Assembly: GCF_004681125.1 (NCBI RefSeq)
Contig: NZ_SIHO01000002.1
Span: forward strand, 496,001-560,000
Direction of reading: 5' to 3'
Length of the DNA stretch: 64,000 bases
Source of the DNA: Glacieibacterium arshaanense
GTDB lineage: Bacteria; Pseudomonadota; Alphaproteobacteria; Sphingomonadales; Sphingomonadaceae
In this document: positions 1-62,149 of the stretch, in pieces
Layout: each line of letters starts with the position of its first letter
Numbering within the stretch: the stretch's first letter is position 1
Notes under the pieces: model-generated
What the model was told of the DNA's origin: nothing
Databases searched by the model: none
The model's input: the letters and a program-made list of their open reading frames with translations, nothing else
Position numbers and translations under genes: made by a program

Positions 1-1224
1 CGCGCCCGTCTGGCCTTCCCCGGCCTCGCGCGCTTCGTGTTCTGGGGCTACCAGCTGTTCATCGTGCTTGCCGCGACCGGCTATCTGATGGGCATCACCG
101 AGGCCAAGGAATATGCCGAGCCCGAATGGTATGTCGATATCTGGCTGACCATCGTCTGGGTGTCGTACCTTGCGGTGTTCGTCGGCACGCTGGTCAAGCG
201 CCGCGAACCGCACATCTATGTCGCCAACTGGTTCTTCCTGGCGTTCATCATTACCGTCGCGATGCTGCACCTCGTCAACAATCTGGCGGTGCCGGCCTAT
301 TACCTCGGCTCAAAGTCCTACTCGGCGTTCGCCGGTGTGCAGGATGCGCTGACGCAGTGGTGGTACGGCCATAACGCCGTGGGCTTCTTCCTGACCGCGG
401 GCTTCCTCGGCATGATGTATTATTTCGTGCCCAAGCAGGCCGAGCGCCCGGTTTACAGCTACCGGCTGTCGATCATCCACTTCTGGTCGCTGATCTTCCT
501 GTACATCTGGGCGGGTCCGCATCACCTCCACTATACCGCGCTGCCCGACTGGGCGCAGACGCTGGGCATGGTGTTCTCGATCATGCTGTGGATGCCGTCA
601 TGGGGCGGCATGATCAACGGCCTGATGACGCTCAACGGCGCCTGGGAGAAGATCCGCACCGACCCGATCATCCGCATGATGGTGCTGGCGCTGGCCTTCT
701 ACGGCATGAGCACCTTCGAAGGCCCGATGATGTCGATCAAGACGGTCAACAGCCTGTCGCATTACACCGACTGGACGATCGGCCATGTCCACTCGGGCGC
801 GCTCGGTTGGAACGGCATGATCACCTTCGCGGCACTCTACTACCTGACGCCGCGCCTGTGGAACCGCCAGCGCATGTACAGCCTGCGCATGATCAACTGG
901 CACTTCTGGCTCGCGACGCTGGGCATCGTGCTCTACGCCTCGGCGATGTGGGTGGCGGGTATCATGCAGGGCCTGATGTGGCGCGAATATGGGGCCGACG
1001 GCTACCTCGTCTACTCGTTCGTCGAAGTCGTCCACGCGATGTTCCCGATGTACGTCATTCGCGCCACCGGCGGGCTGCTCTACCTCAGCGGCGCATTGGT
1101 CATGACCTACAACATCTGGATGACCATCGCCGGCAAGCTGCGCGACGAGGCGCCGATGACCGAGACGCCGTATGATGCGGCGACCGATCGTCCGCTCGCC
1201 CCCACCGCCGCGCCAGCCGAATAA
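1..1224 (+). CDS. ccoN: cbb3 cytochrome c oxidase subunit I (5' end outside window)
   Basis: This is the catalytic haem-copper subunit that reduces oxygen at the inner membrane. The frame is open from base 1, so the N-terminal part lies upstream and about 407 codons are visible. Several hydrophobic helices and the conserved histidine-rich stretches of the family can be read, including [15 protein letters not shown] and [15 protein letters not shown]. Eleven bases separate its stop from ccoO, and ccoOQPGHIS follow in the usual order. The family assignment is very firm; only the missing 5' part and promoter are unknown. Confidence 0.97.
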
Positions 1225-1235
1225 GGAGCCCTGAC

Positions 1236-1970
1236 ATGGCCAGCAAATTCTTCGACCACACGAAGATCGAACGCAATGTCACGCTGCTCGCGGTGCTGTC
1301 GTTGGTGGTGGTGACAATCGGCGGCATCGTCGAAATCGCGCCGTTGTTCTGGATCGACTCGACGGTCGAAAAGGTCGAGGGCGTGCGGCCCTACACGCCG
1401 CTCGAACTCGCCGGTCGCAACATCTACATGCGCGAAGGCTGCTACAACTGCCACAGCCAGATGATCCGGCCGTTCCGCGACGAAGTCGAACGCTATGGCC
1501 ACTTCAGTCTGGCAGCGGAAAGCATGTACGACCATCCGTTCCAATGGGGTTCGAAGCGCACCGGGCCTGACCTGGCGCGCGTCGGCAACCGCTATTCGGA
1601 CGAATGGCATGTCCAGCATCTGACCGATCCGCGCGCCGTGGTGCCTGAATCGATCATGCCGCCCTACGCCTTCCTCGCGGAGAACGACCTCAAGGCGCAC
1701 GACATGGGTCGCGACCTGCGCGCGCTCAGCCGCGTCGGCGTGCCGTACAGCGAAGAAGCGATTGCCGCCGCCGATGCCGATCTGAAGGCGCAGGCCGATC
1801 CCGATGCCGATACCGCGGCGTTGCTCAAGCGCTATCCCAAGGCGCAGGTCCGCGACTTTGACGGCGACCCCAAGCGCCTGACCGAAATGGATGCGCTGGT
1901 TGCCTATCTGCAAATGCTCGGCACGCTGGTCGATTTCGACGCGGCTGCGGCGCAGGAGAAGCCGCGCTGA
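1236..1970 (+). CDS. ccoO: cbb3 oxidase monohaem cytochrome c subunit II
   Basis: CcoO is the membrane-anchored monohaem cytochrome c that passes electrons toward CcoN. The 244-residue protein has one N-terminal membrane helix (about residues 16-38) and a single CYNCH haem motif near residue 70, followed by SQMIRPF, typical of CcoO. The late methionine in SIMPPYAFL is a likely axial ligand. An AGGAG sits upstream of the ATG. The stop overlaps the ccoQ ATG by one base, so translation is probably coupled. Confidence 0.97.
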
Positions 1971-2140
1971 TGTCGCTTCAGCTTGAATATGAAGCGCTGC
2001 GGCACTTCGCCGACAGCTGGGGTTTGGTGTTCATGGGGGTGCTGTTCGTGGCGTTCGTCGGCTGGACCTTTCGCAAGGGTTCGAGCCAGCACAACGACCG
2101 GGCGGCGAACATGATATTCGAGGATGACGATCATGGCTAA
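1970..2140 (+). CDS. ccoQ: cbb3 oxidase small subunit CcoQ
   Basis: This 56-residue protein is read directly between ccoO and ccoP. It has one membrane helix (about residues 18-34, WGLVFMGVLFVAFVGW), then a basic patch and an acidic tail ending EDDDHG. CcoQ stabilises the assembled oxidase. The ATG shares its first base with the ccoO stop, and its own stop lies inside the first codons of ccoP. Size, topology and place match the CcoQ/FixQ family, although little sequence is conserved in that family. Confidence 0.92.
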   Translation: MSLQLEYEALRHFADSWGLVFMGVLFVAFVGWTFRKGSSQHNDRAANMIFEDDDHG

Positions 2141-3113
2141 GAACAAGCGCATCGATGCCCCCACCGGAACCTCGACCGTCGGGCACGAATGGGACGGCAT
2201 CGAAGAGCTCGACACGCCGCTGCCACGCTGGTGGCTGCTGATCTTCTACGCCTGCATCGTCTTTGCCGTCGTCTATGTGTTCCTGTTCCCGGCCATCCCG
2301 CTGGCCAATGGCGCAACGCGCGGCTTCCTCGGCTGGAGCAGCCACGGCCAGTTCGAAAGCGAAATGGCAGCTGCCGCGGCGCGCCGCGCGCCGATTGCCA
2401 AGGCGCTTGCCGATATCCCGATTGAATCGCTGCCGGCCAATCCGCAACTGATGGCCGCCGCCATCGAAGGTGGCCGCGCCGCGTTCAAGGTGCATTGTGT
2501 GCAGTGCCACGGTTCGGGTGCTGCCGGGTCGAAGGGCTATCCCAACCTCAACGACGATGACTGGCTGTGGGGCGGCGATCTGGCGACGATCCAGACAACG
2601 CTGACGCATGGTATCCGCAATCCCGACCATGATGAAACCCGCATCTCGGCGATGCCGGTGTTCGGCGAAATCCTGAACCCGGCCGAAATCGACAGCCTGG
2701 TCGCTTATGTCCGGACGATTTCGGGCCAGCAAAAGCCCGATGCCGCCTCGGCGCGCGGTGCCGTGTTGTTTGCCGCCAACTGCGTTGTCTGCCACGGCGC
2801 GCAGGGGCAGGGGGGCCGCACTGTCGGCGCGCCGAAGCTGACCGATAGCATCTGGCTGTATGGCGGAGACGCGGCGACCTTGCGCCGGACCATCACCTAC
2901 AGCCGCGGCGGGGTCATGCCGCGCTGGAACAGCCGTCTCGATCCGGTGACGATCAAGATGCTCGCGGCCTATGTCTATTCGCTCGGTGGTGGTGAGGCGG
3001 CGCCACAGGTCGCTGCGACCGTCGCTGCTCCGGTTTCCCCAGCTGCGCCCGGGGGGGCGCCGGCTGCAGCACCTGCCGACGCTGCAACGGCGACTCCCAA
3101 TGTCCAGCCTTAG
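2133..3113 (+). CDS. ccoP: cbb3 oxidase dihaem cytochrome c subunit III
   Basis: CcoP accepts electrons from soluble cytochrome c. The protein has about 326 residues: an N-terminal cytosolic stretch (HEWDGIEELDTPLPRWW, the family signature), one membrane helix, then two cytochrome c domains with CVQCH and CVVCH motifs, and an Ala/Pro-rich tail. I chose ATG 2133 because GAGG at 2120-2123 is well spaced for it; an in-frame ATG at 2124 directly abuts that site. The 3' end overlaps ccoG by 14 bases. Confidence 0.96.
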   Translation: MAKNKRIDAPTGTSTVGHEWDGIEELDTPLPRWWLLIFYACIVFAVVYVFLFPAIPLANGATRGFLGWSSHGQFESEMAAAAARRAPIAKALADIPIESLPANPQLMAAAIEGGRAAFKVHCVQCHGSGAAGSKGYPNLNDDDWLWGGDLATIQTTLTHGIRNPDHDETRISAMPVFGEILNPAEIDSLVAYVRTISGQQKPDAASARGAVLFAANCVVCHGAQGQGGRTVGAPKLTDSIWLYGGDAATLRRTITYSRGGVMPRWNSRLDPVTIKMLAAYVYSLGGGEAAPQVAATVAAPVSPAAPGGAPAAAPADAATATPNVQP

Positions 3114-4593
3114 CGACCTCACGAGCCCGAACAGCCCGCTCTATCAAAAGCGCAAGGGCGTCTATCCCAAGGCGGTCGATGGTTTTTACCGGCGGCTGAA
3201 GTGGGCGATCATGATCGTCACACTGGCGATCTACTATGTCACGCCGTGGCTGCGCTGGGACCGTGGGCCCTATGCGCCCAATCAGGCGGTGCTGGTCGAT
3301 CTGGCGCACCGGCGCTTCTACATGTTCGCGATCGAAATCTGGCCGCACGAATTCTATTACGTCGCGGGCATGCTGGTGATGGCGGGCATCGGGCTGTTCC
3401 TCGTCACCTCGGCAGTCGGCCGCGCGTGGTGCGGCTATGCCTGTCCGCAGACGGTGTGGACCGACCTGTTCCAGCATGTCGAACGCTGGATCGACGGTGA
3501 TCGCAACGCGCAGATCCGGCTGGCGAATGCGCCGTGGACCGCCGCCAAGACGACGCGACGCGCGGCGAAATATGCTATCTGGTTGCTGATCGCGATTGCG
3601 ACGGGCGGCGCGTGGATTTTCTACTTCGCCGATGCGCCGACGTTGCTGCGCGAGTTCGTCCACGGCGATGCGCCCAGTGTCGCCTATGCGACCGTCGGCG
3701 TGCTGACCGCGACGACATTCATCTTCGGCGGCTTCATGCGTGAGCAGGTGTGCATCTACATGTGCCCGTGGCCGCGCATCCAGACCGCGATGCTCGACGA
3801 AAAGTCGCTGATCGTCACCTACAAGGACTGGCGCGGCGAACCGCGTACGCAGGGGCTGAAGAAGGCCGCGACGACCGACGCGAGCTTTGACGGCAAGCTC
3901 GGCGATTGCATCGATTGCGACCAGTGTGTTTCAGTTTGCCCGACGGGCATCGACATCCGCGAAGGGCCACAGATCGGCTGCATCACCTGTGCGCTGTGCA
4001 TCGATGCCTGCGACAAGGTCATGGACCAGATTGGCCGGCCGCGCGGGCTGATCGACTATGCGACGCTTGAAGATGCCGTCATCGAAAAGGCCGGCGGCAC
4101 CGCGCCGCCGGTATTGAAGACGCTGCTGCGGCCGCGGACGATCATCTATTTCACCATCTGGGCGTCGATCGGCGCTGCCATGCTGTTCACGCTCGGCCAG
4201 CGCACGCGGCTCGATGTCAGCGCGCAGCATGACCGCAACCCGGCATTCGTCCAACTTTCGGACGGCGAGGTGCGCAACAACTACACCGTCAAGATCCGCA
4301 ACATGGAAACCCGCCCACGCGTCGTCACGCTGGCGATTGCCGGGGTTCCCGGTGCGGTAGCGTGGGATGAAGCCGGCAGCCGCGCGACCGCGGCGTCGAC
4401 AATGCGCGTGCGGGTGCCCGCCGACAGCGTGACCAAGGTGCGGCTGTTCGTGGCGGCCCCCGGCGCCGGCCCGCAGCGGACGCCGTTGACGATCAGCGCG
4501 ACATACGAGGCGACGGGTGCCGGCCGCAGCGAAGCCGACAGCGTCGTCGCCAACTTCGAACGCGCCAAGCCGATCGAGGAGGAGGAAGAATGA
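3100..4593 (+). CDS. ccoG: cbb3 oxidase maturation polyferredoxin CcoG/RdxA
   Basis: CcoG is a membrane iron-sulfur protein that reduces copper during cbb3 assembly. From ATG 3100 it has 497 residues, close to family size, and starts inside the end of ccoP. Visible are membrane helices, the NosR/NapH-like WCGYACPQTVW and YMCPWPRIQ motifs, two 4Fe-4S motifs (CIDCDQCVSVCP and CITCALCIDACD), and a C-terminal Ig-like region. An earlier in-frame start inside ccoP would add only non-conserved sequence and was not used. Confidence 0.96.
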   Translation: MSSLSDLTSPNSPLYQKRKGVYPKAVDGFYRRLKWAIMIVTLAIYYVTPWLRWDRGPYAPNQAVLVDLAHRRFYMFAIEIWPHEFYYVAGMLVMAGIGLFLVTSAVGRAWCGYACPQTVWTDLFQHVERWIDGDRNAQIRLANAPWTAAKTTRRAAKYAIWLLIAIATGGAWIFYFADAPTLLREFVHGDAPSVAYATVGVLTATTFIFGGFMREQVCIYMCPWPRIQTAMLDEKSLIVTYKDWRGEPRTQGLKKAATTDASFDGKLGDCIDCDQCVSVCPTGIDIREGPQIGCITCALCIDACDKVMDQIGRPRGLIDYATLEDAVIEKAGGTAPPVLKTLLRPRTIIYFTIWASIGAAMLFTLGQRTRLDVSAQHDRNPAFVQLSDGEVRNNYTVKIRNMETRPRVVTLAIAGVPGAVAWDEAGSRATAASTMRVRVPADSVTKVRLFVAAPGAGPQRTPLTISATYEATGAGRSEADSVVANFERAKPIEEEEE

Positions 4594-12603: not shown

Positions 12604-12697
12604 AAGAGCCTCCGGCGGGCAGGCCTGAGGCCTGCACCCATTTGTTTGGCGCTCTTCAATCGGGTGCAGGCCTCAGGCCTGCCCGCCGGAGGCTCTT
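12604..12697. repeat. REPIN/MITE-like inverted-repeat element, short class (copy 2)
   Basis: Ends AAGAGCC and GGCTCTT, arms with AGGCCTGAGGCCT palindromes, 94 bp in all. The interior TTGTTTGGCGCTCTTCAA is nearly the same as in the copy at 62054 and recognisable in the copy at 17793, so the whole element, not only the arms, is conserved. It lies between convergent genes and may terminate both. Confidence 0.92.
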
Positions 12698-16113: not shown

Positions 16114-17457
16114 GTGGGTCAAAACCGGGTCAAGGCGACTGTACTGGCCGCCTATTCAGCCCCGTGCCTGCCGCTTGCGGCCGCCGGCCTGCCGTTCGTC
16201 GTCTATCTGCCGCCCTATTATTCGGGCCCGCTCGGGCTCAGCCTCTCGGTTGTCGGCCTGCTGTTTCTGATGGTCCGGCTGATCGACGTACCGCTCGACC
16301 CGATCGTCGGGCACATCATCGACCGGACGACGACGCGCTTTGGCCGTTATCGCCCGTGGGTTGCCGGGTCGGCAGTGATGATGGTCGCCGGCATTGCGCT
16401 GGTCTTTTACGCGCCGCCCGGCCTGTCACCGCTGCGCGCCTTTATCGGGCTGCTGGTCATGTATGTCGGCTATTCGACGTTGCAGCTGGCGCAGACGGCA
16501 TGGGGTGCGACACTGTCGGATGATTACCACGAACGCTCGCGCGTGTTCGGCTGGTGGCAGATGGCGAACGTGCTCGGCATGGTGATGATGCTGATGGTGC
16601 CGCCGCTGGTGGCGCAGTTCACGCCCGACAACAACCATTCGGCGGGCATCCATGCGATGGGTGCATTGGTGCTGGTGTTGCTGCCGCTAGCGGTGCTGGC
16701 GATGCTGCGCATCGTGCCCGAACGCGCCGTTATCGGTGGCCACGCGCACCGGCTGCGCGACATGGTCGCCGTGCTCAAAATTCCGTTGCTGCGGCGGTTG
16801 ATGGTTATCGACTTCCTCGTCGCGCTGGCAGCGGGCATGGCCGGCGCGCTGCTGATGTTCTTTTTCGAGGCTGCACGCGGCTTCACCCCGGCGCAATCGA
16901 GTCTGCTGCTGCTGATCTATTTCATCGCCGGGCTGCTCGCGGCGCCGGTCTGGGTGGCGTTGTCGCGTCGCATCGGCAAGCATCGCACACTAATGCTGTC
17001 ATTGATCATCTACGCCCTGTTCCAGGCCAGCCTGTTGTTCCTGCCGCGCGGCACTTTCACGCTGACCGCCGTGGCGATGGCGCTGGCCGGATTGCCCTAT
17101 GCCGCTGCGGCGTTGCTGCTGCGCTCGATGCTCGCGGACTTGTCCGACGCCGAGACGGTGCGCACCGGGCACCAGCGCACCGGGTTGTTCTTCGCGACGC
17201 TGATTGCGGTCAGCAAGCTTGGCTATGCGCTGGCGGTCGGGCTTACCTATCAGGTGCTTGATGCCATCGGCTTCGTCGCCAAACTGGGCGAGGCGAACAC
17301 GCCAGACGCCGTCAGTGGCCTGGTGTTCATGTTCGCCGCACCACCCGCAGTGCTGCTGGCGATTGCGGCGGCGCTGACCGCACGCTGGCCGATCAATGCC
17401 GAGCAACAGGCGCGTATCGCGGCCGAACTGGCGGCGCGGGTAAATCAACCCGGCTAG
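16114..17457 (+). CDS. MFS_2 (GPH-family) sugar/cation symporter-like transporter
   Basis: A 447-residue membrane protein with about twelve hydrophobic helices. The first cytoplasmic loop reads RLIDVPLDPIVGHIIDRTTTRFGRYRPW, the DxxxG-D-RT-GRxRPW pattern of the MelB/GPH group. GTG 16114 has GGGAG ten bases upstream. It is divergent from the secreted amidohydrolase, so the two may share a control region at 15921-16113. The cargo could be a sugar or peptide product, but nothing in the sequence defines it. Confidence 0.87.
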   Translation: MGQNRVKATVLAAYSAPCLPLAAAGLPFVVYLPPYYSGPLGLSLSVVGLLFLMVRLIDVPLDPIVGHIIDRTTTRFGRYRPWVAGSAVMMVAGIALVFYAPPGLSPLRAFIGLLVMYVGYSTLQLAQTAWGATLSDDYHERSRVFGWWQMANVLGMVMMLMVPPLVAQFTPDNNHSAGIHAMGALVLVLLPLAVLAMLRIVPERAVIGGHAHRLRDMVAVLKIPLLRRLMVIDFLVALAAGMAGALLMFFFEAARGFTPAQSSLLLLIYFIAGLLAAPVWVALSRRIGKHRTLMLSLIIYALFQASLLFLPRGTFTLTAVAMALAGLPYAAAALLLRSMLADLSDAETVRTGHQRTGLFFATLIAVSKLGYALAVGLTYQVLDAIGFVAKLGEANTPDAVSGLVFMFAAPPAVLLAIAAALTARWPINAEQQARIAAELAARVNQPG

Positions 17458-17792
17458 CAGCCGTATTAACCCTGACTCGGCGCCACATCGGCCCGGGCAA
17501 GTCGAGATCAGGAACAAGTTCGCCGCTGCCGCCGCTTCCTCATTTCCCAGGCATAGGCGCCGAGAGCATCATCCAATATAGACGTGGCATTTGTGCGTGG
17601 GATTAGCGCCGCGGGCCCTGCCCAAATACTCTGCATTCAACCACGATTGCGCACGCGGATATTTGCGTCAGCAATCTATCGTCCTGGGCGCACCATGTTT
17701 TCTATTCTTTAACGTACAATTTGCTTTCGCTCGCATTGCATATTAACTATGCGGACTCATTCCATTTGGATTGAATGCTGTAAGGTCTTCGT
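17458..17792. other. intergenic region without recognisable gene
   Basis: A noncoding stretch that becomes markedly AT-richer from about 17690. I see no open frame with family features. An imperfect inverted repeat (ATTGCGCACGC / GCGTCAGCAAT, 17646-17675) is present; its role is unknown. It lies between the ends of two convergent genes. Confidence 0.5.
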
Positions 17793-17863
17793 AAGGCCTG
17801 CACTCAATTGTTGTGGGCACTTCAAATGTGTGCAGGCCTCAGGCCTGCTCGCCGGAGGCTCTT
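17793..17863. repeat. degenerate REPIN-like element (copy 3)
   Basis: The right arm is nearly intact (GCAGGCCTCAGGCCTGCTCGC followed by CGGAGGCTCTT). The left arm is shortened and changed (AAGGCCTGCACTC). The interior TTGTTGTGGGCACTTCAAA resembles the short-class interior. It lies just before the CHAT gene stop. Confidence 0.8.
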
Positions 17864-17866
17864 AGC

Positions 17867-20704
17867 CTACGCCTCCAATCGCGCAATCGCATCCTCGATC
17901 GACGCGATCCATGCCGCCGCCGCCGCGCCATTGCCGGTGCCAAGTTGGGTGCGCATGTAGCGCATGTCGGACAGCGTGGTTTCGAATTCGAAGTTGCTGC
18001 CGCAGCGGAGCATGACCTTGTCGTAGCAGTGGACGATGGCGTCGTGCGCGGCTTGTGACAGCGTGCCGGCGGCAAGTTGTTCGAACAGCAGGTAGCCGGC
18101 TCGGCTGGCGGCGTGCCAATAGTCGTCGAGTTGTTCCTCTCCAACAGCGAGGTCGGCGGCGAGTTGGGTGAGGTCGGCCTTGGTGGTGTCGCTGGCGGCA
18201 TGGCCGGCACGCAGGTCGATGAGCAGCCCGGCCTCGACCACCAGCTGGCCGGGGTAATAGGCATTGGCGTCGCCGCGCTGTTGCGCGAGGGTCCAGGCGG
18301 CGCGGTAGCAATCGCGCATCGTGGCAAGCGTCGTATCGACGGCGGCGCCGGATTGCAGAAGTGCCTCACGCTTGTAGGTGGCACCGATCAGCGTCAGCCG
18401 TTCGACAGTAGGGCCGGCGATCTTGCACAGCGCCTCGATATCGGCGCGTACGGCGGCGATGCGGTCGAACGCGTCGGGGGCGAAGCCGCCGCCGTCGAGC
18501 GGTGCGACGGCGGTGCGCAGCCGCAGTGTCGCGAGTTGTTCGAGCAGCTGCACCGACGGCAGCGCGTCTTCGTGCAGCGCGCGTTCGAACAGCTCGATCG
18601 CCGTGGCGGGTTCGTTGAGTGCTGCAAAGGCGCGGCCGAGCGCCTCGGCGACTTGCGGGCGGGCGAGCCAGCCGCGCTTGTCGAAGCGGGCGTGCAGCGT
18701 CGTCAGCGACTTGAGCAGCGCGTCGCGGTTACTGCTGCGGCCCGAGCCGACTTCGATCTGCTCGCGAATGGTGTCGATGAAGGCAATGGCTTCGGCGGGT
18801 GACGCGAAGGCGAGGCGCGCGCCGCGCGGCAGCGACGTCGCGGCGGCGGGTTCGTCGCCGTTCTTCGGGCTGAGCCGCCAGTCGGGCTCGCCGTAGCATT
18901 GGTAGGCGCCCCAGGTGCTGTCGTCGGGGTTGGCCTCATAGACGGCGGTGCGGGCGTTCAAGACGATTTCACCGAAGCCGGCATTGTTGGCCAGCAAGCC
19001 CCCGTAAATTTCGCTGCCGAATAGTTTGCCGCCTTTGTCATCGACCGTCCAGCCGGCGGCGATGACAGCGCGCGCGCCCATGGCGATGAGTTGCGCGGCA
19101 AAGCTCGCGGCGAATTCGGGGCGGCCGCTGGTGTGGAAACGCTCTTCCAAGCGCGGTGAGATGGCGGCGAGTTCACAGCAGTTGATGAACGCAAAGGTCG
19201 GCGGGTCGGGCATCGCCTGCAGGATGGCGGGGCTGATGACGATATGGTCGCCGAGCAGCACGCCGGTGTAGCGCTGTGCGCTGCCGGCGGGAATCGCGCC
19301 CGAGTCTTCGAGATCGGCCTCGCGTTTGAAGGTGAAATCGAAAATGCCGTGCGCCGAAACGTGCAGCACAGTCCAGCCGCCACGCAGCACATGTTCGATA
19401 ACGGTTTCGGGCGGATTGCCGGCGCCGATCAGCCGAGTGACAGTGAAGCCGGCTTTTTCGAGCTGGTCGGCGACTTGTAACGCTTCGGCTTGCGCGCCGG
19501 GCAGGCGTTTGAAGCCGAAGTTCCAGTCGCCGTCGTGCGGGTCGCCGATGACCAGCGCAGTGCGTTCGCCCGATGTGGCGGTCTGGCGGCGTGCATAGTC
19601 CTGCTGGATGAGCTGGCGCAGGATGCCGAACCGCACCGCTGGCGGGCGGCTGCCGTCGAGATCGGTTTCGTGCTCCTGCCGGTCGTCCATCAGCTCGAAC
19701 GGCAGCGAAGCCGCTGTCGTATCGAGGATGAGACGCAGGTGACGATTGTCGAAGCGCGTCGCCTTGAGCTGCGGCGGCCAGATCAGCTGGTACAGCGACC
19801 GCGCGGCGGACTGCCACGCAGCAGCGGGTTCGTGCGCATTGTAGATGGTTGCGGAGAACTTATCGACGAACTCGCGGTTGCCGGCGACCAGCATGCCTTC
19901 GGCACGCGCGCTGCCGCCGATCGACGCGAAGCGCAAACCCTTACTGCCATCGACGAGGGTAGCCTCCTGGATCTGCAGCGCGCGCCAGGCATCGAGGTTG
20001 TCGTCGCGGGCGATGCGCCGCGCGGCGCCGTCGCGATAGGCGACTTCGCCGTCGAGCGCGAAGGCGCCGCGGAATTGCGGGGTGGCGATCAGCCGGTCGA
20101 GCGTGTGCCAGATGGTATGCGCGGTATCTTCCATGTACGCGAAGATCTGGATTTTGGTGAACGGCCGCAGTTTTTGTTCGGCGAGCCGGCGTTGCGCTTC
20201 GACAATCGCGCCAAGCATAGCGGCCAGTGTATCGGTCATCGAGACGACACCAGTGCGCGTGCCGATCATCACCATCGCGGCGCCGTTGCGCGGGGTCGGG
20301 TTCGCGCCGCCGTCAAGTCGCCCGATGGTGTCGCGGACGCGGGCGATCTGGCCTTCGCCGAGCGCCAGTTCAATCAGTCCGGCGATAAGCGCGCTGCGGA
20401 TCGTGCCGGCACTGAAATCGGCGATATTGCCGAGCCCGACAACGACGCCGCCGGGGCGCCGGTCAACGGGTTGCGCGGCATAGGTGACGCTGCCGACGCT
20501 AGCGGGGTAGATGCCGAGCGCATAGCGCCGCGACAGCGCGCCATCGAGCGCCGCATCGAGTCGTGCTTCGGGGCCGGAAATCGAGTCGCCGGCAAAGTGC
20601 CCGACGATGACCGGATAATGCGCGTAGGACAGGTCGCCGTTGACGACGGTCAGGCGTAGCGCCTCGGCGGGCATGTCGCTTGGAGGGGGGGGCGTGTCGG
20701 CCAT
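17867..20704 (-). CDS. CHAT-domain (caspase-like) protease with helical C-terminal region
   Basis: A 945-residue cytosolic protein with no signal peptide. The CHAT peptidase domain (about residues 330-640) has its catalytic pair in LHVSAHG (His452) and FINCCEL (Cys510), then MGARAVIAAGWTVDD and WGAYQCYGEPDW. The N-terminal about 300 residues contain VGHFAGDSISGPEARLD and VVVGLGNIADF, which recall the N-terminal domain of M17 aminopeptidases. The last about 280 residues are alpha-helical and TPR-like. ATG 20704 has no clear ribosome-binding site. A 73-residue Gly/Arg repeat peptide gene lies upstream on the same strand, with a hairpin between. CHAT proteases often act in immunity or cell-death pathways; its job here is not known. 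Confidence 0.88.
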   Translation of the reverse strand: MADTPPPPSDMPAEALRLTVVNGDLSYAHYPVIVGHFAGDSISGPEARLDAALDGALSRRYALGIYPASVGSVTYAAQPVDRRPGGVVVGLGNIADFSAGTIRSALIAGLIELALGEGQIARVRDTIGRLDGGANPTPRNGAAMVMIGTRTGVVSMTDTLAAMLGAIVEAQRRLAEQKLRPFTKIQIFAYMEDTAHTIWHTLDRLIATPQFRGAFALDGEVAYRDGAARRIARDDNLDAWRALQIQEATLVDGSKGLRFASIGGSARAEGMLVAGNREFVDKFSATIYNAHEPAAAWQSAARSLYQLIWPPQLKATRFDNRHLRLILDTTAASLPFELMDDRQEHETDLDGSRPPAVRFGILRQLIQQDYARRQTATSGERTALVIGDPHDGDWNFGFKRLPGAQAEALQVADQLEKAGFTVTRLIGAGNPPETVIEHVLRGGWTVLHVSAHGIFDFTFKREADLEDSGAIPAGSAQRYTGVLLGDHIVISPAILQAMPDPPTFAFINCCELAAISPRLEERFHTSGRPEFAASFAAQLIAMGARAVIAAGWTVDDKGGKLFGSEIYGGLLANNAGFGEIVLNARTAVYEANPDDSTWGAYQCYGEPDWRLSPKNGDEPAAATSLPRGARLAFASPAEAIAFIDTIREQIEVGSGRSSNRDALLKSLTTLHARFDKRGWLARPQVAEALGRAFAALNEPATAIELFERALHEDALPSVQLLEQLATLRLRTAVAPLDGGGFAPDAFDRIAAVRADIEALCKIAGPTVERLTLIGATYKREALLQSGAAVDTTLATMRDCYRAAWTLAQQRGDANAYYPGQLVVEAGLLIDLRAGHAASDTTKADLTQLAADLAVGEEQLDDYWHAASRAGYLLFEQLAAGTLSQAAHDAIVHCYDKVMLRCGSNFEFETTLSDMRYMRTQLGTGNGAAAAAWIASIEDAIARLEA

Positions 20705-20786
20705 GGGTTCGGACCAGCTGTTGTTGTGTCGGATCGATGTGGCGCGCGGGTTTGTTCATTCGCGCCTGTTGCCCGCAATTGCAACA

Positions 20787-20816
20787 ACGCCGGCGCTGGA
20801 TTTCCGGCGCCGGCGT
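20787..20816 (-). terminator. strong hairpin between repeat-peptide gene and CHAT gene
   Basis: Perfect 10-bp arms ACGCCGGCGC / GCGCCGGCGT with a 10-base loop, 38 bases after the repeat-peptide stop and 82 bases before the CHAT start. In the minus direction it is followed by TTGTTGC rather than a full T run. It could be a weak terminator or a processing/attenuation hairpin that lowers CHAT expression relative to the peptide. Confidence 0.6.
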
Positions 20817-20854
20817 CATGTCGTCAGGCCGGTCGCGACGACCGGCGCAATGTC

Positions 20855-21076
20855 TTAGCGTCCGCCGCTGCGTCCACCGGCGTCACCGCCGCGCCCGCCG
20901 CTACGTCCGCCGGCGTCACCACCGCCGCGGCCACCGCTGGTGCCGCCGAGGTCGCCACCACCGCGGCCGCCGCTGGGCTTGCTGATGTCGCCGCCGCTGC
21001 GCGTGCCTTCTTCGACTTCGTCCGCACCGCGGCCGCCGCTGCGACCTCCTGCATCTCCACCGCGTGTCGTTGACAT
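20855..21076 (-). CDS. 73-residue Gly/Arg/Asp-rich repeat peptide upstream of CHAT protease
   Basis: Low-complexity protein built of GGDAGGRSGGRG-type units at residues 6-17 and 52-73, separated by a less regular acidic centre (ADEVEEGTRSGGD). It contains no cysteine, aromatic residue or membrane segment. ATG 21076 is preceded by GGGGAGA with about six bases spacing, one of the better ribosome-binding sites in the window, which supports real translation. It lies directly upstream of the CHAT gene on the same strand. A substrate, adaptor or regulator of the protease is plausible but unproven. I know no named family. Confidence 0.72.
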   Translation of the reverse strand: MSTTRGGDAGGRSGGRGADEVEEGTRSGGDISKPSGGRGGGDLGGTSGGRGGGDAGGRSGGRGGDAGGRSGGR

Positions 21077-21212: not shown

Positions 21213-21299
21213 TGGTGCCCACGGCCGGACTCGAACCGGCATGACCTTGCGGCCGAGGGATTTTAAGTCCCTTGCGTCTACCAGTTCCGCCACGTGGGC
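21213..21299 (-). tRNA. tRNA-Leu (anticodon UAA)
   Basis: The 87-nt minus-strand sequence has acceptor arms GCCCACG/CGTGGGC, a D arm (TGGCGGAACTGGTAGACGC), anticodon loop CTTAAAA giving UAA, a long class II variable arm, the T-loop GGTTCGAGTCC, and an encoded CCA. This is a complete leucine tRNA. Confidence 0.96.
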
Positions 21300-24408: not shown

Positions 24409-24540
24409 AAGGGCCTCCGGCGGGCAGGCCTGAGGCCTGCACCCATAAGCTTGCGTCGGTGCATCGGACGCGAACGTCGCGATGGTTGATCCGTCCCAGC
24501 AATTGGGTGCAGGCCTCAGGCCTGCCCGCCGGAGGCCCTT
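24409..24540. repeat. REPIN/MITE-like inverted-repeat element, long class (copy 4)
   Basis: AAGGGCCTCCGGCGGGCAGG and its complement flank about 62 bases of interior; total 132 bp. Both arms carry AGGCCTGAGGCCT-type palindromes. The interior begins TTGCGTCGGTGCATC, similar to TTGCCTCGGCACATC in the copy at 49286. It lies between cmk and the VOC gene. Confidence 0.92.
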
Positions 24541-62053: not shown

Positions 62054-62149
62054 AAGAGCCTCCGGCGGGCAGGGCCTCAGGCCCTGCACCCGATTGTCTG
62101 GCGCTCTTCAAATGGGTGCAGGCCTCAGGCCTGCCCGCCGGAGGCTCTT
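62054..62149. repeat. REPIN/MITE-like inverted-repeat element, short class (copy 10)
   Basis: AAGAGCCTCCGGCGGGCAGG and its complement around the interior TTGTCTGGCGCTCTTCAA, nearly the same as in copy 2; 96 bp in all. It lies just downstream of the nadK stop (minus strand). Confidence 0.92.

Follow-up and report, generated by a model that had tools for sequence, protein, structure and literature searches.

A predicted separase/Csx29-type CHAT protease and a neighbouring Gly/Arg repeat peptide gene confined to the same genus in Glacieibacterium arshaanense

A CHAT protease gene encoding 945 residues and, upstream of it on the minus strand, a gene for a 73-residue Gly/Arg repeat peptide were characterized in a 64,000-nt stretch of the Glacieibacterium arshaanense genome (contig NZ_SIHO01000002.1, positions 496,001 to 560,000; hereafter, the window). 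The CHAT product was predicted to be a separase/Csx29-type CHAT protease with putative small-molecule sensor domains. The evidence best supports reading it as a protease that is gated by a sensor and leads to suicide or growth arrest; a metabolite would be read by the TPR-S and macro-like domains of the model, and CHAT would cut a target. The pair was maintained in all three sampled genomes of the genus, and a functional two-gene system is possible.

The CHAT domain was identified by Pfam (PF12770) at residues 299-606 with E = 3.2e-24 (86.3 bits versus a curated cut-off of 24), and TPR-S (PF20308) with E = 3.1e-8 (34.5 bits versus a curated cut-off of 27.6). The approximate domain bounds were 11-215 for a macro/M17-N-like domain, 299-606 for CHAT, and 635-945 for a TPR-S/ASK1-like helical repeat. 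Peptidase_M17_N scored 14 bits in the window protein, below the cut-off of 23.4, and the family profile matched the N-terminus of cytosol aminopeptidase (E = 1.6e-4). His452, Cys510, Asn508, Trp552, and Asp556 were invariant in all 77 aligned sequences, which, together with the Pfam match, confirmed the CHAT-type His452/Cys510 pair that the original prediction had read from the sequence. An AlphaFold2 model was built from a 73-sequence alignment that left out rows from plasmid records, and its mean predicted local distance difference test (pLDDT) score was 82.7. Using VIA-align, the model matched separase (Z 21.0), Csx29 (Z 20.6), and gingipain R (Z 17.7-18.3), and the top match by Foldseek was Csx29. 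Residues 635-945 matched the central regulatory region of ASK1 (Z 20.4), while the N-terminal region matched the macroH2A macro domain (Z 16.4 over 11-206) and macro/leucine-aminopeptidase-N folds (Z approximately 16 over 11-212). A direct sequence search of the CHAT domain against solved structures gave no match. The ratio of non-synonymous to synonymous substitution rates (dN/dS) of the CHAT gene was 0.10-0.17, indicating that the gene is maintained.

Orthologues with 91-94% identity were confined to the genus, being present in 3 of the 299 family genomes sampled and absent from the other 296; the sister genomes appear in one collection as uncultured Polymorphobacter metagenome-assembled genomes. 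Distant homologues (26-36% identity) were common in Pseudomonadota and present in other phyla, and 67 of the 70 with a complete 5' end had at least 1700 aa. The module normally forms the C-terminal half of these relatives of approximately 1800 aa, the other half being a DUF7379-type alpha/beta-hydrolase. Pfam analysis of two plasmid-borne representatives placed an N-terminal DUF7379/lipase-like alpha/beta-hydrolase before the same module, and for the remaining long relatives the domain make-up was deduced from their length and the start of the match. The window protein begins at the M17N domain, without the hydrolase half, and DUF7379 was found elsewhere in the same genome. In a tree rooted only at its midpoint, the window protein was placed on a long branch among alphaproteobacterial members, mostly fused, with a Shimodaira-Hasegawa-like approximate likelihood ratio test (SH-aLRT) value of 100. 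Because the tree nests it among these members, loss of the hydrolase half would be the simpler reading. In the literature searched, no paper linked DUF7379 with CHAT, and the hydrolase-macro-CHAT-TPR-S proteins apparently constitute a broad, widespread family that is unnamed.

The neighbourhoods of 78 homologue loci were compared. Of the 18 loci with the caspase cluster, 17 had a caspase C14 gene upstream, at a median distance of 37 nt; an M15-like peptidase gene overlapped downstream in 16 of the 78, and a mixed neighbour cluster including TPR-S proteins was present in 11. On a Rhizobium leguminosarum plasmid (1014-14541), a stand-alone CHAT homologue lies between two large TIR-domain genes, the first being TIR-nSTAND1-WD40, and the locus also contains a GH108 muramidase gene and an unknown gene. 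On Paracoccus plasmids (98-3343; 81-3365), the fused CHAT gene is preceded by that of a membrane protein of approximately 1080 aa, one annotated with a transporter substrate-binding domain and the other without a clear Pfam family. The Glacieibacterium genome itself has a separate conflict-type cluster (G000:C1:496500-516400) with nSTAND1-WD40, two other CHAT proteins, and a caspase-DUF7379 fusion.

The elements of the window locus are as follows.

17867..20704, minus strand: CHAT protease gene, 945 aa, assigned from Pfam, alignment, and the AlphaFold2 model
20858..21076 without the stop codon (20855..21076 with it), minus strand: Gly/Arg repeat peptide gene, an open reading frame (ORF) of 73 aa
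21077..21092, minus strand: ribosome-binding site region of the peptide gene, GGGGAGA...ATG, kept in three genomes
20787..20816, minus strand: strong hairpin ACGCCGGCGC...GCGCCGGCGT and then a TTGTTGCAAT tail, recognized from fold, sequence, and conservation
20825..20850 (approximate), minus strand: second, shorter inverted repeat GCCGGTCG..GCGACCGGC, just past the peptide stop codon and conserved in three genomes
21213..21299, minus strand: tRNA-Leu(TAA), identified by ARAGORN and Rfam

The peptide contains 32 Gly and 10 Arg among its 73 residues, with four RGG and eight GGR tripeptides, and its isoelectric point (pI) is 10.4. An N-terminal unit is followed by an acidic linker and by C-terminal units of GG(G)DAGGRSGGR; GGDAGGRSGGR is represented by three exact and two degenerate units. 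The unit pattern occurred three times in the window and never in 100 shuffles. When ten GGDAGGRSGGR units taken from all three genomes were compared, the 11 variable columns were all third codon positions. As these units had been chosen by identical peptide, the dN/dS of the whole ORF, 0.19-0.27, is the unbiased figure. Purifying selection thus acts on both the peptide and the CHAT genes. Indels within the ORF were whole codons, with the acidic linker varying and the repeats holding, and the ribosome-binding core CGGGGAGAC and the start of the peptide were identical in the three genomes. Both sister genomes have the peptide at the same position, although one contig of the third genome ends within the repeat and the following one opens with the repeat's end, so that adjacency there was deduced. 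As far as sequence can tell, the ORF is a genuine, genus-restricted gene, and on this point the original prediction was upheld.

It could instead be supposed that the ORF is untranslated and is only a GC-rich repeat or a structured RNA. The region is indeed GC-rich and has open frames in several phases. However, the same unit differences read in the other two frames yielded 205 and 189 non-synonymous codon differences, and the whole-codon indels and the conserved ribosome-binding site and ATG also speak for translation. No known RNA family was found by Rfam at the ORF or the hairpin. We regard an untranslated repeat as very improbable. The peptide motif was found in none of 397 further genomes of the order and gave just six single chance matches in unrelated frames in viral contigs. 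No Gly/Arg peptide was found beside the other CHAT or caspase loci that this genome carries. A tblastn search of plasmids with the consensus peptide gave 0 matches, which is uninformative owing to low-complexity filtering.

Here, we proposed that the CHAT product may be a signal-gated clan CD cysteine protease. The TPR-S region with its ASK1-like fold, perhaps together with the N-terminal macro/aminopeptidase-N-like domain, would keep the separase-like CHAT domain inactive. Binding of a stress or invasion signal, predicted to be an NAD-derived nucleotide, would release CHAT, and the active protease would cleave one or a few cellular proteins, leading to growth arrest or cell death. In this genus the protease appears to have lost its link to the DUF7379 hydrolase, with which it forms a single chain in relatives, and a protease without this in-chain hydrolase would need another output. 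The small, putatively disordered Gly/Arg repeat peptide may be the best candidate partner, as a substrate or a competitive pseudosubstrate. Taken as a whole, the explanation of a signal-gated CHAT protease that cuts one or more cellular targets, with the peptide as its best candidate partner, has in our judgement an even chance of being correct. The partnership itself is speculative: that the peptide is a substrate or pseudosubstrate, i.e., the target or the brake of the protease, is our leading guess and is offered tentatively. A two-gene switch new to science, in which a macro-CHAT-TPR-S protease that lost its hydrolase either acts upon a (GGGDAGGRSGGR)n peptide or is held in check by it, seems somewhat unlikely.

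Several observations weigh against this proposal, including the S1 residue considered below. No Gly/Arg repeat ORF was found near any of the 78 distant homologues, an outcome that the original prediction had itself named as refuting the pairing and that therefore counts against it in part. As to its question of whether the neighbours are enriched for defence genes, PADLOC returned no defence models in the CHAT protein, the peptide, or ten neighbouring window proteins. No signal-producing enzyme (TIR, Sir2, or cyclase) was identified beside the window CHAT gene. The sensing role of TPR-S is reportedly a published prediction. Moreover, the two genes are separated by approximately 150 nt, which hold a conserved hairpin with a T-containing tail. 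Its fold was calculated as -35.8 kcal/mol for a 66-nt stretch, just 11 perfect 9-bp hairpin starts, this one included, were counted on the minus strand in 64 kb, and its stem and TTGTTGCAAT tail were identical in the three genomes. An automatic terminator scan did not list the hairpin at 20787..20816; it is probably an intrinsic terminator or a leader structure, judging from the sequence, and may end the peptide transcript. The strand and order of the pair were as originally described, with the qualification that this spacer lies between the two genes. The claim of a two-gene system likewise survived only in part, with the genus-wide pairing on one side and the hairpin and the peptide-free homologue loci on the other.

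These features would suit a small peptide gene that has nothing to do with CHAT and is expressed as a unit of its own, with a separate promoter, Shine-Dalgarno sequence, and terminator; its product might be, e.g., an RGG-type RNA-binding or condensate-forming peptide. Besides the hairpin and the homologue loci, the peptide gene has its own conserved ribosome-binding site whereas the CHAT gene has no recognizable one, and the RGG and GGR content and the basic pI fit such a function. On the other hand, the distributions of the two genes match: neither was found outside the same three genomes, and they occur together at a site where relatives lack the segment. The gene order on the minus strand is rpsA, ihfB, tRNA-Leu(TAA), peptide, and CHAT; in the 1.5 kb fetched at the rpsA locus, relatives keep rpsA-ihfB without tRNA-Leu or CHAT. 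Co-occurrence in one genus is a single evolutionary event, and synteny in three close genomes does not separate the partner reading from the independent-gene reading. We consider an independent gene a serious possibility, somewhat short of an even chance.

As the original prediction noted, bacterial CHAT proteases often have a partner or substrate encoded beside them. The window protein has the architecture of signal-controlled proteases, and CHAT substrates are frequently found in adjacent genes (PMC9729208); the S1 residue, however, offers no positive support for cleavage after Arg. The residue of separase that recognizes P1-Arg, D2151, corresponds to Lys670 of Csx29, 43 residues after Cys627 (PMC9729208). 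The residue 43 after Cys510 of the window protein is the non-acidic Thr553, mapped to Csx29 K670 by spacing and not by superposition. With Thr at the separase D2151 position an Arg-specific pocket is not favoured, and therefore a substrate, an inhibitor, and an unrelated neighbour were all kept as rivals. Glu511, beside the nucleophile, and Thr553, at the expected S1 position, were found solely in this lineage among the 77 sequences, the Thr553 position being Ala in most relatives; these lineage-limited residues are consistent with an altered substrate.

If the peptide were the dedicated substrate, cuts after GGR would free a burst of short Gly-rich fragments as a signal or toxin. Z-GGR-AMC has a Km of 18 uM for the metacaspase of Candida glabrata, an Arg-specific clan CD enzyme (PMC9622860), the likewise Arg-specific gingipain R was among the structural matches, and the eight GGR per peptide are kept by selection. 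In addition to the non-acidic residue at the presumed S1 position, two points argue to the contrary: the CHAT relative Csx29 cleaves Csx30 after Leu407 (PMC9729208), and near-identical repeats are conserved though a single cleavage site would be enough. A dedicated substrate of this kind is unlikely.

The peptide might also be a securin-like pseudosubstrate inhibitor lodged in the CHAT active site, whose removal would free the protease in a toxin-antitoxin-like unit. Separase, the best structural match, is controlled by a pseudosubstrate-type inhibitor, securin. Securin is also treated in PMC9729208. A disordered repeat peptide with a good ribosome-binding site, encoded as a separate upstream unit, would suit production in excess. 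The long C-terminal TPR-S domain, however, would already provide in-chain control, and an inhibitor of this type is in our view distinctly unlikely.

Should the two genes prove to function as a pair, they would represent a minimal protease-partner unit, for which we know of no precedent. Such a pair would illustrate how a sensor-gated CHAT protease trades an effector in its own chain for a separate peptide. In so compact a system, a single experiment could address the predicted signal of TPR-S, the activation of CHAT, and the choice of substrate. Apart from the peptide, the analysis outlines the hydrolase-macro-CHAT-TPR-S family with its caspase and peptidase neighbours.

The tRNA-Leu(TAA) just upstream of the peptide marks where the tRNA-peptide-CHAT segment, specific to the genus, begins behind ihfB. 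A prophage or island origin via tRNA-Leu was considered and rejected, as no repeats of the tRNA 3'-end above chance 12-mers were found in the window. Downstream of CHAT lie a convergent major facilitator superfamily (MFS) transporter gene and an amidohydrolase gene. Gene content on this side (window 17457-17866 in the comparison) varies among the sister genomes, with a TadE-like gene in one and the MFS gene in the window, while the upstream side is syntenic. A GATTGGCGCG box was common to the upstream regions of the peptide and CHAT genes in one relative; the two genes do not share it in the window. Palindromes resembling repetitive extragenic palindromic (REP) elements (GTGCAGGCCTCAGGCCTGCCCGCCGGAGGC) were observed at window positions 12608-12693, 17832-17859, 24413-24536, 27542, 49290, 62118-62145, and 7667; they are intergenic, and one stands immediately behind the CHAT stop codon.

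Among known systems, Csx29 (TPR-CHAT)/Csx30 of type III-E CRISPR-Cas (Craspase) shares with the window protein a separase-like CHAT domain with a His/Cys dyad, and the substrate Csx30 is encoded by the neighbouring gene (PMC9729208). In contrast to Csx29, the TPR part of the window protein is a C-terminal TPR-S and its N-terminal part is macro/M17-N-like, and the window peptide, being a short repeat, does not resemble Csx30. Where a type III-E locus would have Cas7-11/gRAMP, Csx30, Csx31, and RpoE alongside, the neighbours here are rpsA, ihfB, tRNA-Leu, the MFS transporter, and the amidohydrolase gene, and no Cas7-11/gRAMP was detected in the window proteins tested. The DUF7379-M17N-CHAT-TPR-S fusions of approximately 1800 aa have the same domain order and all catalytic residues at 26-36% identity over most of the length. 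A tandem alpha/beta-hydrolase at the N-terminus and, frequently, a caspase or M15 peptidase neighbour set them apart from the window gene, which has neither and is accompanied by the peptide gene. The TPR-S domain is common to the window protein and the TPR-S conflict systems, which Burroughs and Aravind are said to have described in 2020. The window locus differs from conflict systems in lacking a STAND/MoxR/vWA core or an identified nucleotide synthetase. Caspase and alpha/beta-hydrolase pairings are known from the nucleoside triphosphate (NTP)-dependent conflict systems (Kaur et al. 2020; PMC7159879), and the relatives combine both likewise. The FxSxx/RxD/acidic peptide-processing modules (Haft and Basu; Kaur et al. 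2020) similarly place a small, poorly conserved precursor gene beside a peptidase in a conflict-type context, but they use zincin metallopeptidases, often with radical S-adenosylmethionine (SAM) enzymes, in actinobacteria, and the motif of the window peptide differs. Finally, in eukaryotic separase-securin the regulatory domains differ and the S1 Asp is replaced by Thr553 in the window protein (by spacing), whereas the protease fold is the same (Z 21.0), and its inhibitor/substrate logic may serve as a model for the window pair.

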